A stretch of DNA of 64,000 bases from the NCBI GenBank assembly GCA_947458405.1, contig CANGZW010000004.1:23701-87700 (forward strand). Direction: 5' to 3'. The notes beneath the pieces were generated by a model. It searched no databases and was not told the DNA's origin. It saw only the letters and a list, made by a program, of their open reading frames with translations. A program made the translations under genes and the position numbers. The DNA comes from Leptospiraceae bacterium. GTDB taxonomy: Bacteria > Spirochaetota > Leptospiria > Leptospirales > Leptospiraceae. The number at the start of each line of letters is the position of its first letter. The first letter of the stretch is position 1. This document shows positions 8,610 to 53,078 of this stretch, piece by piece.

Positions 8610-8792
8610 TTAAACTTTATCCTGTCTAAAAAACTCCCTAATTTTATAGTCTCTAGAGGATTCTGCCAAAAGTGTAAGCTCAAAAATCGACTCTAACCAG
8701 AGAAGTCTTTCATGAATACTAAGAAAAGAGTATTTTCTTAGATCATCTTCTTCTAACTCATAAAAGAAATTTGCCTGCATTTTTTTATTCAT
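8610..8792 (-). CDS. Small protein paired with nucleotidyltransferase, unknown function
   Basis: 60 aa ORF overlapping the upstream NTase gene by 8 nt; charged helical composition. Confidence 0.5.
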   Translation of the reverse strand: MNKKMQANFFYELEEDDLRKYSFLSIHERLLWLESIFELTLLAESSRDYKIREFFRQDKV

Positions 8793-9276
8793 TAAATTCT
8801 TTTGCTTTATTTAAAAATTCAATATCTTTCATATCTTTTGGTCTTGCAGATACTCTTTTCATTGTAATTAAATCTTCAATACAGGCTAAATAGAGTTCAA
8901 AATCTTCAATGGGTTTTATTAGTTTTCTTTTAAATGCCTCTTGAAAATCCAAAGGATGTTTTATTATTATATCCACTACTTGATGAGAATGTTTTTCATT
9001 ATAAAAACTAAATGCAATTAAATTCTTCTCTTTAATCCAATATTCTACTTTTTTCGGATCAGCCAAATGAATTGGATCTTCGGGAAGGGAAGGAATATAA
9101 TTTCCTTCGCCCAATACTTTTAAGAGTGAAAGAATATTTGATTTATCAGTAGAAATTACAAGATCAAAATCAAATGTAGCACGTGGAACCCCGTGTAAAT
9201 TGACCGCTACACCACCAACTATTAAATATTCAATTTTATTTTCATAAAGTGACTTTAATAAATCTATATAAAACAT
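8785..9276 (-). CDS. Nucleotidyltransferase-fold protein (DUF6036/MNT-like)
   Basis: YLIVGGVAVNLHGVPRATFDFDLVIS: GG...R.T.D.D(L) NTase signature. Confidence 0.75.
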   Translation of the reverse strand: MFYIDLLKSLYENKIEYLIVGGVAVNLHGVPRATFDFDLVISTDKSNILSLLKVLGEGNYIPSLPEDPIHLADPKKVEYWIKEKNLIAFSFYNEKHSHQVVDIIIKHPLDFQEAFKRKLIKPIEDFELYLACIEDLITMKRVSARPKDMKDIEFLNKAKEFNE

Positions 9277-9279
9277 AAG

Positions 9280-10107
9280 CTACTTTACACACCTTACGTA
9301 TGCTTTAACATCAGCATTTTCAAAATTTAAAATTTCACCAGTATATAGTGATACTACCAAAACTTTTTCCGGAGGAGTTGTGGATACTGATGAAGTCCAA
9401 AACCATCCAAAGTCTTTTAATTCTTTCCAAGAAGTTGTAAGCTCTTTACTTGTAGGGAGTCTCTTTTTTAATCCTTTGCAATACAAATCTGCCTCTTCCT
9501 TTGATAAAGATAATTTATTTGAATTACCATCCCAACTTAATCCAGCTATCAGCACATCCCCTAATTTTTTTTCTGGAATTAAAATATATTTATTATCTTT
9601 TTTTATTGGAAGTTTTGAAGTTTCTATACTTTCCTTTTTTACTATTTCCTTGGTTTCTTGTAACTTTTCTGTTGATTTTAACGGATTTTCTTTTAACAGC
9701 GATTCTATTTTTTCATCAACACTTTCTAATACAATATCTTCTTTGGCAGAATTTACTTTTTTCTTATTTCCTTCTATTTTTATTAATTCCTTATCCAATT
9801 TACTTAATACCTGATCATCATACTCTAAAATGATTTCTTCGTTAAAAATTTGATTATTCTCAATATATATATTTATCTTTTTATCTACATAACCTTTTTT
9901 ACTAATTATTATTGAGTAAATACCTCCCTCTAGATAGAATTCCGTAGGAGTTGTTGCCTTAAAAACTTCCGAAGAATGTGAATATATTTTGACCATAGCA
10001 CCAATTGGATTTGATTTTAAAAATATATTGTTGGTTAAATTATTTTCTTTTGAAAATATAGAAAAACTTAAAAATATAAGTAAGATTAAAATATTATTTA
10101 ATAACAT
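9280..10107 (-). CDS. Exported PEGA-domain protein with C-terminal DUF1566 (Lcl_C)-like domain
   Basis: Signal peptide; FLKSNPIGAMVKIYS...TTPTEFYLEGGIYSIIISKKGYVDK (PEGA); LYCKGLKKRLPTSKEL...FWTSSV...AYVRCVK (DUF1566-like). Confidence 0.7.
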   Translation of the reverse strand: MLLNNILILLIFLSFSIFSKENNLTNNIFLKSNPIGAMVKIYSHSSEVFKATTPTEFYLEGGIYSIIISKKGYVDKKINIYIENNQIFNEEIILEYDDQVLSKLDKELIKIEGNKKKVNSAKEDIVLESVDEKIESLLKENPLKSTEKLQETKEIVKKESIETSKLPIKKDNKYILIPEKKLGDVLIAGLSWDGNSNKLSLSKEEADLYCKGLKKRLPTSKELTTSWKELKDFGWFWTSSVSTTPPEKVLVVSLYTGEILNFENADVKAYVRCVK

Positions 10108-10128: not shown

Positions 10129-11304
10129 TTAATATAGAACATTTGTTGCTTCATTAATATATTTTTCAATATCAACTCTATTTTCTTCCCCGATAGTTTG
10201 AATAAATTTCTCAAATATAATATGCTCAGAAATATTTAATGCTAATGAGTGGCACCCATCAATAATCAATAATCTTTTTAAAAAATCAACTCCCTTATAA
10301 TCACCCGATAAGATTTGATTTTCTAAAATATATCGAATTGTCATTGGGTGCCAGCCTTCTAGTACATAGGTCAGTCCCATTTTTAAGTAAAAGAAATCTT
10401 CTGAATTTAGCATGCCTAAAATCTCTAGAGAATCTTTAAATCCAACTTCTCTTATTTTCCCTGAAATACCCAAGAAAATTAAAATTACTTCTTTAATTTG
10501 AGCTTTTTGTTTATAGTTTGAATTCAATCGATATGTAAACTCATTCCCCTTATACAATCTACTATAATAATATGATTCCCTCCTTAATTCAAATGAATTT
10601 TGTTCAGTACCATTTAATCTAGCATTGATAAAATCTATAAATTCATTACCTAACATAGAAGTACATTCTTCCGAATTTGCATTTAAATTAATAAGATCCA
10701 AATTAAAATCTGTAAAACAAGATGTAATTTTATTTTTATATTCTTCTGGTAGTACTTTTAGTCCTGCAACAATAAAGAGGGGATTTAAATCGAATAATAA
10801 ATATTCTAGTTGTTTCTGGGATAGGCTTATTATATTTTTTATTTCATCAGTTTTTTCAGATATTTTATTGGTTTTTAAATTTATATTTATATATTTTTGC
10901 TTAAAATATGTTTCTTTATTTTTTATTAAGCTATTAAAAAAAATATATTCTTCCCCTAAATATGAAATTAATTTATGATAGATTTGATAAGGATGTTCAT
11001 TTAATAATATAGATAAAAATGTTTCAACTGCTAATAAGTATTCTAAAAATTTATATCCTCTATAATCAGAGCTTAATAAGTGATACCTCAAAGATTTTTC
11101 AATTATCATGAAAGTTCCGTTTGAATTTTTAATATTTTGTGCTAAATCAAAGATAGGATGAAAACCTTTAGGAAAATCCCCATTCCTATATAAATAAATA
11201 TTATCTATAATTTTATTTATAAATTCAATACATTTATCTTTATCTCCATTAGATAATTGTAATTTTTTAGAAAGCTCAGTGCCCAAATAAAATCGAACCA
11301 TCAC
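10129..11304 (-). CDS. MotA-cytoplasmic-like module + FliG_C-like segment + second MotA-like module (predicted soluble)
   Basis: Repeated FYxGxE...LxSxDYxGxxFLxxxxxI module at both ends; middle LSQKQLEYLLFDLNPLFIVAGLKVLPEEYKNKI resembles FliG_C; no transmembrane segment. Likely ATG start at 11301. Confidence 0.65.
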   Translation of the reverse strand: MMVRFYLGTELSKKLQLSNGDKDKCIEFINKIIDNIYLYRNGDFPKGFHPIFDLAQNIKNSNGTFMIIEKSLRYHLLSSDYRGYKFLEYLLAVETFLSILLNEHPYQIYHKLISYLGEEYIFFNSLIKNKETYFKQKYININLKTNKISEKTDEIKNIISLSQKQLEYLLFDLNPLFIVAGLKVLPEEYKNKITSCFTDFNLDLINLNANSEECTSMLGNEFIDFINARLNGTEQNSFELRRESYYYSRLYKGNEFTYRLNSNYKQKAQIKEVILIFLGISGKIREVGFKDSLEILGMLNSEDFFYLKMGLTYVLEGWHPMTIRYILENQILSGDYKGVDFLKRLLIIDGCHSLALNISEHIIFEKFIQTIGEENRVDIEKYINEATNVLY

Positions 11305-11749
11305 TTTCCTCCTTTGATTTTTCGAATATCAAATAATCCCTACGAAACTTTTCTCCACATAAAGAAAGTATTTTTTCCTTAAATATATTTAAATTATTTT
11401 CTTTTTCTATTCCTTTAAAAAATTCAATAATTATAATTTTTTTTAGAAAAACTAATCCACGATAATTTCCAGATAAAACATAAAATTTAAATATCTTATT
11501 TAATATATAAAATTGTAATGCACTATCATTATCATTTACAAATATTCGATTTGTAATTAATAAATTAAATCCTATTTTCAGTAAGTAGGACTGGTCTATT
11601 ATTTGTGAAACTAGAATATCTTTTTTATTCTTTAAATATTTATTATAAAGCTCTAAAATAGAATAAATATGATCATTTAGCTCAATTTTTTCTTTTTCTG
11701 ATAATTTTGATCTACTATTGAATTCTATCGAATTATAAAAATAATCCAT
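11276..11749 (-). CDS. Single MotA-cytoplasmic-like module protein
   Basis: Shares FY..xEFxxR N-terminus and LSGNYRGLVFLKKIIIIEFFKGI segment with neighbours; overlaps both flanking ORFs. Confidence 0.6.
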   Translation of the reverse strand: MDYFYNSIEFNSRSKLSEKEKIELNDHIYSILELYNKYLKNKKDILVSQIIDQSYLLKIGFNLLITNRIFVNDNDSALQFYILNKIFKFYVLSGNYRGLVFLKKIIIIEFFKGIEKENNLNIFKEKILSLCGEKFRRDYLIFEKSKEESDGSILFGH

Positions 11750-12533
11750 AATCAGAGCCTTCTATTATAACTTCTCCGGATTGAATTAATTTATTTAATA
11801 TAAATAAGATTCTACTTCGGGCTTCTAATTCTTCTTCTGGAGTATAAGCTAATTCCATCTCTTTTTTAAATAAGATTTTTGCCGCTCTCTCTCCTATGCT
11901 ATCATAAAATATTTTTTTGAATCCTGGTTCCAAACTGTTAATTGCCCTAACTATAAAAATATTATCTACTTCTCTGGCAATTTTTTGAATTGACTTTGTA
12001 TCACATTTTAATATTTTTCTAAATTCTTTAGGATTAATAGATAAATTTTCAAAATCTGGTTGCTTTGCTTTTTTTAATGATAGTATATATTTAGTAAATT
12101 TTAATATAAATTCTACTAAGTTCTGAGAATAGTTTTCCTCTTTATTATCTACTATATAGTCCTCTCCAAAAAGGGAGAGTAAAATTTCAATCACAATATA
12201 TGGTGAATACTTATATTGAATAGCCGATATTCCTTCTAATATAATCATTTTTTGTAAAAAATCTTTTCCATGATAATCACCAGATAAAATATGTCTAGAT
12301 AAAATGGAATGAACCTCATTCGGATCAGTTTCTTCAATTACTAATTCTAAACCAAGTTTAAAAAAAGGATCCTCAATATATTTCAATTCTTCAGCTAAGA
12401 AGTCAGCACCTTCATCGCCATATATAATTGAATATTTTAAAACTCTCTCGACAAGGTCTATACTTTCCTCTTTTTCCCGGCTCCTACACCTAATTCTATC
12501 AGTAAACTCATTTCCTTCATAAAACTCTTCCAT
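11733..12533 (-). CDS. MotA-cytoplasmic-like / FliG_C-like fusion protein
   Basis: EGADFLAEELKYIEDPFFKLGLELVIEETDPNEVHSIL + MIILEGISAIQYKYSPYIVIEILLSLF (MotA loop and C-tail pattern); DTKSIQKIAREVDNIFIVRAINSL...GERAAKILFKKEMEL...RILFILNKLIQSGEVII (FliG_C pattern). Confidence 0.72.
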   Translation of the reverse strand: MEEFYEGNEFTDRIRCRSREKEESIDLVERVLKYSIIYGDEGADFLAEELKYIEDPFFKLGLELVIEETDPNEVHSILSRHILSGDYHGKDFLQKMIILEGISAIQYKYSPYIVIEILLSLFGEDYIVDNKEENYSQNLVEFILKFTKYILSLKKAKQPDFENLSINPKEFRKILKCDTKSIQKIAREVDNIFIVRAINSLEPGFKKIFYDSIGERAAKILFKKEMELAYTPEEELEARSRILFILNKLIQSGEVIIEGSDYGLFL

Positions 12534-50285: not shown

Positions 50286-53078
50286 TTATTTGACTTCAAT
50301 TATACCTATAGTAAAAGTCTTACAAGAAGATAGTCCACTAAAAATATTTATAATTAAACTACCCTTGCCTTTTTTTAATGCAATAAAAAATAATTTATCC
50401 CCAAGAAAATAATATGGATTTACTAAGAATGAATTATGATCTTTAATTTTTAAATAACTAGAATTTAAAACTCTTAAAAAATTTGGAAATTTAATTTGAA
50501 CCAAAGAATGTTTCTCTAAAGTATTTAGAAAAGATATTGAACCGATTTCACCAATTAAAAATGAAAATTTATCTAATTTAAAGTATTCAGTATAGGATTC
50601 AAACTGATTTTCTATATTTGTATTATTTTTACTAATGTAAAACTTTTCCTCTGTTTTACAAGAATTATTTCTAATCAAAATGAGTTCAAAAAGCCTATAT
50701 AAATTAAAAATTTCAATATTATTTGAAAATAAATTGAATTGTAAATCATCTATTAATTTCTTCCTTATATTCTCTATTTTAATTTTCTTAATTTTTTTAA
50801 TATATGTAATTTTCTCAGATTTCAAGCCTACTATTTCTAAAATCCTATTTAATCCGGCTGATCTCTTGATTCTCTTTGACTCCGAAAAACTTCTTTGAAC
50901 TTCTATACTATCTATATTTTTACTAATTAATACTTTCAGTAGAATTATTTTAACTTCGATTAATGAAAAATCACTATCTATTAAAGTTAATTCATTTCCA
51001 TCAAATTTCAAAATTTTATATAAATTATTATATATATAATCTTCAGTTTTAATTTTATTTTTAAATGAATAATTTTGAAAATAAAGAATCTTCTCCCTAT
51101 AATTTTTTATATAATCTAATAATTTCTGTAAATCGAATATTTTATCTTTTATAATTTCTTCCCAAGACTCTAAAATTGAATAGCCTGCTACTGAATAATG
51201 AATACCTTTTGAATCATACTCCTGAACTTTCTGAAATAAATAATCTATATTCTCTTTTATATAACTCTTATTATTTATTTTATATTTTTTTAATAAATAA
51301 TATATCATTACCATAATATTAAAAATATTATCCCCTGATATATTAAAAAAATTATTTTCTATTTTTTTCAGTAAATTTTCTATTTTAATTGATTGCTCTG
51401 AAGAGTTTGTAATTTTATAAGTATCAAATATTTCAATTTTATTTTCATTTTTAAAAATGTATTTCTTAGAATCTATTTCAATTATCATTTCTTCCGAACA
51501 TTTTATATAATATTCGATTTTACTATTTTTAATTAACTTTTCTCTTGGTTTTAAAATCTTCCATTCTTTATTATAATTTTTAGAACAATATACATTAACT
51601 AAACTTTGCTCTGTTTCGATCTGATTACTATTTTCTGAATATACCTGAACACTTTCATCTAATGGTGAATATAACCTTATAATATATTTCAATGTAGTAT
51701 TTATCTCATATATATCTATATATAATGAATTTATATTTTCTTCATTAATTGTACTTATTTTAAGATCCAAGTCTTCATCTGTTATTGTGTGTATGATTAC
51801 TCTATAATTTTGATTTTTTACTCCAAATAACTTAATTTGATTTTCTGTGTAAGATTTTTCAAAAGGTGAAATTACCCCTTTTTTATTTACATTAAATGCG
51901 ATTTCTAAATCTTGTGAACTTTCGATATTCAATGCTAATTCATCTAGGGTTAGTAATTCACTAGATATTAAAAATAAATATTTTATTCCAAATTTTAGTT
52001 TTTCAGAAATTACAATATCCTCTCTACTTCTTCTAAAACTAAGAGCTTGAATTGACTTTAATTTTAGTTGCGAACTATACTTGGGTTTATAAATGACTTC
52101 ATCAGATTCTGACTTAAAATATATATTATATTTTTCACTATGACCTAAAGCCTTATCAGATTTTACAAAAGAAATACTTATCTTATTATCTCTTATATCA
52201 GCTTTCCCAAAATTTAATGCAAGACCACAATCTTTACAATATACTATATACTTTATTTCAGAAGATATTTTTTTTTCTAATTTAGTGTATATTAAACCTT
52301 CTCCAAATATTTTTTTATTATCTTCTATTAACTTAAAATTTCTTATTATTAAATGTGACTCTGACTCTTTTAGAAAGATCAACTCCCTTTGGGAAATAAC
52401 TTTATCTTCATATATTAGATTAATTTTTATCAATCCTTCAAGTGAATCAATCTTAAATTCTCCATAATAATACCCCCATACATCTAAGTGAATTTTTTGA
52501 TTTAATATCTCTTTTTCTTTATTTTCAAACTGGATTTTAATTTTTTGTCCTGCCAATTTTCTAGATATAATAATTATTCTTACTATTTTATTACATTGCA
52601 ATACATCTTCTAAAACTAAAAAATATAGGTCATCTTTATTTATATTTTTCTTTACACAAACTGGAAAGTTAAAATTTAAAATCATTCCATTATAGGAAAT
52701 TTCTCTAGACTCATATAGTCTCAAGATATCCTGAATTATTATTTGAATTGCTTCTTCTTCAGAAATGTTCTTATCAGAGATAGACTTTAACTTTTTTGAG
52801 TCATAAATAATTAAGATAGGTTTTCGAAATTCAAAATATTTATTATATAAAAACTTAACAATTGAACTAGGAAGTGATTTTAGGAATACTTCCATATCCC
52901 CCTCATAGAGCTCTGAAATCAACAGGGGAGGTGAAAACAGTTCTTTACAGAGATAGTCTAGGATTTTCGTATCAAATAGAAAATCCTCCGACATATCCCT
53001 AAGGATCCACCCTATTTCAGAACTATTCATCCTTCTTAAGATTTTAATTAGATGGGAAATGTTTTCCTGATTTTCCAA
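50286..53078 (-). CDS. Large hypothetical protein (930 aa)
   Basis: Uninterrupted 2.8-kb ORF, no clear signal peptide or TM; single YCKDCG motif; no family recognised. Confidence 0.6.
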   Translation of the reverse strand: MENQENISHLIKILRRMNSSEIGWILRDMSEDFLFDTKILDYLCKELFSPPLLISELYEGDMEVFLKSLPSSIVKFLYNKYFEFRKPILIIYDSKKLKSISDKNISEEEAIQIIIQDILRLYESREISYNGMILNFNFPVCVKKNINKDDLYFLVLEDVLQCNKIVRIIIISRKLAGQKIKIQFENKEKEILNQKIHLDVWGYYYGEFKIDSLEGLIKINLIYEDKVISQRELIFLKESESHLIIRNFKLIEDNKKIFGEGLIYTKLEKKISSEIKYIVYCKDCGLALNFGKADIRDNKISISFVKSDKALGHSEKYNIYFKSESDEVIYKPKYSSQLKLKSIQALSFRRSREDIVISEKLKFGIKYLFLISSELLTLDELALNIESSQDLEIAFNVNKKGVISPFEKSYTENQIKLFGVKNQNYRVIIHTITDEDLDLKISTINEENINSLYIDIYEINTTLKYIIRLYSPLDESVQVYSENSNQIETEQSLVNVYCSKNYNKEWKILKPREKLIKNSKIEYYIKCSEEMIIEIDSKKYIFKNENKIEIFDTYKITNSSEQSIKIENLLKKIENNFFNISGDNIFNIMVMIYYLLKKYKINNKSYIKENIDYLFQKVQEYDSKGIHYSVAGYSILESWEEIIKDKIFDLQKLLDYIKNYREKILYFQNYSFKNKIKTEDYIYNNLYKILKFDGNELTLIDSDFSLIEVKIILLKVLISKNIDSIEVQRSFSESKRIKRSAGLNRILEIVGLKSEKITYIKKIKKIKIENIRKKLIDDLQFNLFSNNIEIFNLYRLFELILIRNNSCKTEEKFYISKNNTNIENQFESYTEYFKLDKFSFLIGEIGSISFLNTLEKHSLVQIKFPNFLRVLNSSYLKIKDHNSFLVNPYYFLGDKLFFIALKKGKGSLIINIFSGLSSCKTFTIGIIEVK

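Follow-up and report, generated by a model that had tools for sequence, protein, structure and literature searches.

The window analyzed here, a 64,000-nucleotide stretch of a Leptospiraceae contig, encodes three overlapping open reading frames (ORFs) on its minus strand between positions 12533 and 10129, here termed P0001, P0002, and P0003 (Table 1). P0001 and P0002 overlap by 17 bp and P0002 and P0003 by 29 bp, and P0003 begins at a GTG codon that is followed immediately by an ATG. An N-terminal motif resembling FYxGxEF occurs in four copies across the three ORFs (FYEGNEF, FYNSIEF, FYLGTEL, and LYKGNEF), as does the motif LSGDYxGxxFL, confirming the original prediction, made from the DNA sequence alone, that the three overlapping ORFs carry four copies of a single module. 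The modules are only ~20-33% alike, a case of tandem duplication with strong divergence. The possibility that the ORFs are frameshifted pieces of one gene was rejected because the N-terminal motif recurs at the start of every one of them and because the relatives described below are single full-length genes. Downstream of P0003, a gene encoding a protein with PEGA and Lcl_C-like domains is followed, with short gaps, by a gene for a DUF6036 nucleotidyltransferase (together spanning 8785-10107, minus strand). Based on spacing, these two genes possibly belong to one operon with P0003, although any functional link is unknown. No flagellar genes were found near P0001-P0003. Elsewhere in the window, a 930-aa ORF (50286-53078, minus strand) yielded no Pfam match at an E-value of 0.001.

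Table 1. Features of the locus in window coordinates, and domain architectures among related proteins.
Feature	Position or locus	Strand	Length or residues	Description
P0001	11733..12533	-	266 aa	Soluble MotA-cytoplasmic module + FliG_C chimera
MotA cytoplasmic module of P0001	12159..12533	-	residues 1-125	TM3-TM4 replaced by short linker
FliG_C of P0001	11760..12026	-	residues 170-258 (about)	Pfam PF01706, 1.7e-9
P0002	11276..11749	-	157 aa	Single MotA-like module, most divergent, without FliG_C
P0003	10129..11304	-	391 aa	MotA-like module + degenerate FliG_C + MotA-like module
Degenerate FliG_C start in P0003	10711..10842	-	about residues 155-198	Between two MotA modules; no Pfam match
Second MotA-like module of P0003	10153..10572	-	residues 245-384	AF2 + Foldseek
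PEGA domain + Lcl_C-like protein	9280..10107	-		22 bp gap after P0003; Pfam PEGA 4e-5
Architecture MotA-FliG_C	several Spirochaetota members			
Architecture FliG_C-MotA	L093			Reversed order
Architecture FliG_C-LRR-MotA-MotA	L100 6772-9189		805 aa	
Architecture MotA-only tandems	L165			
Tandem pairs	L094/L095			

A family hidden Markov model (HMM) was trained on 21 related proteins from outside the window. Among 90 window ORFs, this model matched only P0001 (132 bits, spanning almost the entire protein), P0003 (76 bits, with residues 67-198 contributing 34 bits and residues 255-384 contributing 36 bits), and P0002 (16.6 bits, E-value of 2e-4, residues 83-147), and the top score among 600 shuffled versions was 5.9 bits. 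The NCBIfam MotA model independently matched residues 17-83 of P0001 (2.1e-6). The original prediction had proposed that the ORFs fuse MotA and FliG_C segments and that this be checked against PF01706. The fusion is clear in P0001, where the FliG_C match scores 38.3 bits against a Pfam cut-off of 23.3 and the domain aligns by sequence to PDB entry 1qc7 (7.8e-7). P0002 and P0003 had no FliG_C match over the Pfam cut-off. P0003 nevertheless aligned up to position 208 of the 256-position family HMM, which reaches into the FliG_C part. A FliG_C in all three ORFs was therefore rejected: P0002 has none, and that of P0003 is degenerate. Neither Pfam nor NCBIfam detected a FliG N-terminal or middle domain in P0001-P0003; the match to the FliG model is confined to its positions 241-329.

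The central anatomical claim of the original prediction was that the TM3-TM4 block of MotA is missing and that the cytoplasmic loop runs directly into the C-terminal tail. This was borne out by profile-profile alignment (hhalign) of the soluble family with real spirochaete MotA, which gave an E-value of 3e-31 with a single internal gap that corresponds to TM3-TM4. The tail that follows the linker also matched MotA when aligned alone (1e-14, with a reversed control at 0.31). Hydropathy analysis identified no transmembrane helices in the window proteins and none in 20 of 21 relatives (one was borderline), as compared to two to four in full-length real MotA; a true MotA with overlooked transmembrane helices was thereby rejected. 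Chance or low-complexity resemblance was likewise rejected on the basis of the shuffled sequences, the window-ORF control, and the reversed-profile control. The window proteins thus meet the definition of the chimera family, namely a MotA loop connected to the C-terminal tail via ~28 residues, without transmembrane helices and usually with FliG_C. Together, these data demonstrate that the locus encodes three tandem members of a family of soluble proteins in which the MotA TM2-TM3 loop is joined directly to the C-terminal tail, with the channel helices removed and usually with FliG_C thereafter, and they support the description of a cytosolic stator mimic joined to a rotor segment as a statement of anatomy. 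The chimeras share with the MotA/PomA/MotP stators the TM2-TM3 loop (the R90/E98 region and GTDP motif), the C-terminal tail (EGxLxIQxGxNP), and the fold, but differ in lacking the channel block, in having no evident MotB partner, and in being fused to FliG_C. Likewise, they share with the FliG rotor protein its C-terminal, stator-facing domain, but without the N-terminal and middle domains and with a MotA module attached.

Predicted structures agree with this reading, which would have been refuted had neither flank of the linker resembled MotA or had the fold been unrelated; both MotA matches and MotA/FliG_C folds were obtained. The AlphaFold2 (AF2) model of P0001 (pLDDT 87.7, pTM 0.65) aligned in Foldseek with FliG_C (1qc7; rmsd of 1.1 A over 88 columns) and, at a probability of 1.00, with MotA chain 8ucs_C from a FliG-bound stator. 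When modeled alone and not as part of the full-length protein, the final module of P0003 (pLDDT 87.5, pTM 0.84) also adopted a MotA-like fold: its eight best PDB matches were all MotA or PomA chains, led by MotA 8ucs_C/8ucs_G (probability 1.00, TMq 0.63-0.64). The E-values for this module were weak (best of 0.01) because the target includes the membrane block, and weight is therefore placed on the probability and uniformity of the hits.

All three window proteins also matched the NCBIfam model LIC10244_fam (NF047717, "PerRA/PerRB upregulated protein"), at 1.1e-14 for P0001, 2e-9 for P0002, and 1.9e-7 for P0003. Their scores (54.5, 37.2, and 30.8 bits, respectively) fall far below the curated cut-off of 475, indicating that they are homologous to this family over the MotA part but are not members by rule. 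The same model matches other chimeras, in one case over positions 9-241 of 252, suggesting that LIC10244 of Leptospira interrogans most likely has the chimera build, an inference from model matches and not from the LIC10244 sequence itself. The family is annotated only as hypothetical or upregulated. Among the genes tabulated as altered in a perRA perRB double mutant grown in dialysis chambers, LIC10244 appears as a hypothetical cytoplasmic protein with a value of 6.61 (PMC8638967). A 2025 study of Leptospira YcgR homologues counted three FliG and two MotA and did not mention LIC10244 (PMC11800159).

Homologues were sought in Leptospirales, as had been proposed, and were found there, in ~10 families of Spirochaetota, and in Clostridia. 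Three Leptospiraceae genomes, among them UBA2033 and Go_SlAct_bin_98, carry a single chimera gene of 245-262 residues (MotA/MotP, 1e-19; FliG, 4e-15), and a PDB search with these proteins recovered MotA 6ysf (1e-12), a second, weak match in collinear order to the C-terminal tail of MotA, and FliG_C (5e-12). These three were the only carriers among seven other Leptospiraceae genomes examined, revealing a patchy distribution among close relatives. The same three genomes also encode what is apparently a giant relative of FliM/FliN, with a pair of FliMN_C domains in each 769-781-residue ORF (G005:C196, G006:C128, and G007:C493). The wider Spirochaetota members came from a profile search of 395 genomes assigned to this phylum by the named matches. 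Separately, a collection of 85,462 species was searched with a DNA pattern that combines the GTDP and C-tail motifs at a spacing seen only without the channel block. Of 40 matches, 24 contigs carried an ORF recognized by the family HMM, and these belonged to Spirochaetota and Bacillota/Clostridia (Defluviitaleaceae, Lachnospiraceae, Roseburia, Agathobacter, Acetatifactor, Fusibacter, and others); the remaining 16 (Streptomyces and others) lacked a family ORF and were discarded as chance. No full chimera was found in a plasmid collection; the Treponema saccharophilum plasmid pTS2 (L187) encodes soluble MotA ORFs annotated as hypothetical. It should be noted that metagenome-assembled genomes may be incomplete. 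A phylogeny of the FliG_C domain, based on 93 columns and with long branches, did not resolve whether the fusion arose once or several times, and placed P0001 on a very long branch. No description of soluble or truncated MotA, of MotA-FliG fusions, or of LIC10244 was found in the open-access literature searched, apart from the listing noted above; such absence is not proof, but the scattered family is apparently undescribed.

The torque contact involves MotA residues R90 and E98 and FliG residues R281, D288, and D289 (Escherichia coli numbering). These positions were assigned in the chimeras by motif and not via an aligned E. coli sequence. Among 17 non-redundant relatives ranked by charge conservation, E98 was first and R90 third of 123 columns in the MotA part, while R281 and D289 shared first rank and D288 was third of 98 columns in the FliG_C part. 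Certain residues (GTDP, V, G, Q, G) are conserved because the DNA search pattern requires them; no torque residue is among these. Across 22 sequences, R90 is an arginine in 19 and E98 a glutamate in 21, while R281 is basic in 21, D288 acidic in 18, and D289 acidic in 19. With its torque charges ranking so high in conservation, the family retains both faces of the rotor-stator contact, although this conservation may reflect folding rather than docking. Of the five charges, P0001 keeps only that at R281 (G, A, R, K, and K at R90, E98, R281, D288, and D289, respectively), whereas the real MotA and main FliG of this organism, which has three FliG paralogues, have intact torque charges. The family therefore looks built for the rotor-stator interface, whereas the window trio, judged from sequence, looks derived.

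An association with flagella is supported by a separate FliG, in addition to the chimera, in all 35 carrier genomes tested and by FliM/FliN in 34 of these 35. In a Lachnospiraceae control, 82 of 150 genomes had any MotA or FliG match and the chimera carriers fell among those 82; this co-occurrence control for Clostridia is limited to one family. The chimera genes lie mostly outside flagellar operons. A motif resembling the FliM N-terminus (xLSxDEIDxLL) was observed in eight Treponema and Lachnospiraceae members or neighbors, as compared to 0.03 expected from shuffled sequences; one of the eight carriers is itself a FliM-like protein, and the motif is absent from most chimera members and from the window. 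The N-terminal peptide of FliM is the binding site for CheY-P, and chemotaxis control is therefore plausible in lineages that bear the motif.

Several further arrangements of motor-related genes were observed. In a Lachnospiraceae genome (UBA3826), a 246-aa gene without Pfam matches (L137 4641-5381) carries the FliM-like motif at its start (MKEGLLSKEEINELLGK) and overlaps the chimera gene start by 4 bp. Tandem soluble MotA ORFs at L165 (G203:C12) and on pTS2 have C-terminal FliM-N-like motifs (GGTISADEIDELL), with one soluble MotA ORF having a weak DnaN-like N-terminus; BspA-type LRR proteins and ~280-aa ORFs with the same motif near the N-terminus surround them. At L164 (G276:C31; 4965-6107, 8620-9873, and 17182-17946), a cluster outside a flagellar operon encodes a truncated FliG_C protein together with two additional proteins resembling FliM; these may be another set of derivatives of switch parts.

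How might such proteins act? The MotA-like part would dock on the FliG_C of the rotor and the FliG_C part on MotA of the stator, such that one soluble chimera could compete with or bridge stator and rotor, and torque would be lowered, disengaged, or tuned. Chemotaxis signaling may control the chimera in those lineages where it, or a neighboring gene, carries a FliM-type CheY-binding motif. The window copies, given the loss of R90, E98, D288, and D289 from P0001, would more likely bind passively, as non-driving competitors, or have come to bind one another, or some new partner, instead. That family members are soluble modulators at the rotor-stator interface (a brake, clutch, or adaptor) is inferred without binding or phenotype evidence, and we consider the chances of its being correct to be about even. 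Precedent is provided by YcgR, which slows the motor through contacts with MotA as well as FliG (PMC10140304). Among other flagellar brakes and clutches, EpsE acts on the rotor (PMC3000366). Like these two and MotI, the chimeras are soluble proteins with a presumed site of action where MotA meets FliG; unlike them (PilZ and glycosyltransferase folds), a chimera regulator would consist of the motor's own stator and rotor parts, and no Pfam match to the c-di-GMP-binding PilZ domain of YcgR-type brakes was found in the window proteins. The YcgR precedent, the charge conservation, the presence of FliG in all carriers, and the FliM-N-like motifs support a modulator, while the location of the genes outside flagellar operons, the charge loss and long branch of P0001, the scarcity of the FliM-like motif, and the one-family Clostridia control count against it.

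Alternatively, the chimeras could be stable accessory subunits of the motor that recruit stators to the rotor rim or form an extra C-ring layer, rather than brakes. The chimeras carry docking faces of the rotor type and of the stator type, and the variable domain order (Table 1) suits a tether over a fixed machine. An obligatory structural part would, however, be expected to occur more uniformly than among three of seven close relatives, and the chimera genes lie outside flagellar operons; this explanation is considered unlikely. It is also conceivable, if rather improbable, that the two kinds of module, MotA-like and FliG_C-like, associate with one another in the same copy or across copies to form a regulated switch or polymer off the motor, with the window copies the most derived. 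The charges lost from P0001 while its fold is kept, the divergent tandem copies, and the lack of nearby flagellar genes would fit such repurposing, but the invariable co-occurrence of FliG and the prominence of torque charges in the rest of the family do not. That the trio is merely decaying and without function, as the degenerate FliG_C of P0003, its absence from P0002, and the long branch of P0001 might suggest, is very improbable considering the three intact overlapping frames in one run, the confident folds, and the homology to the regulated LIC10244 family (PMC8638967).

Modulation at the rotor-stator interface bears on a central question in motility, namely how MotA drives FliG and by what means cells slow or adjust this contact. 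The family may represent a new class of motor regulator, a stator minus its ion channel joined to the torque face of the rotor, responsive to CheY in some lineages and with a PerR-responsive member in Leptospira, a tentative proposal that we hold at somewhat less than even odds. A natural soluble protein with both contact faces and no channel would offer a minimal, purifiable torque interface and a new type of regulator to test. The findings also provide a structural hypothesis for an uncharacterized L. interrogans family that responds to loss of PerR regulators (PMC8638967) and point to additional unannotated proteins derived from motor parts in Treponema and Lachnospiraceae.
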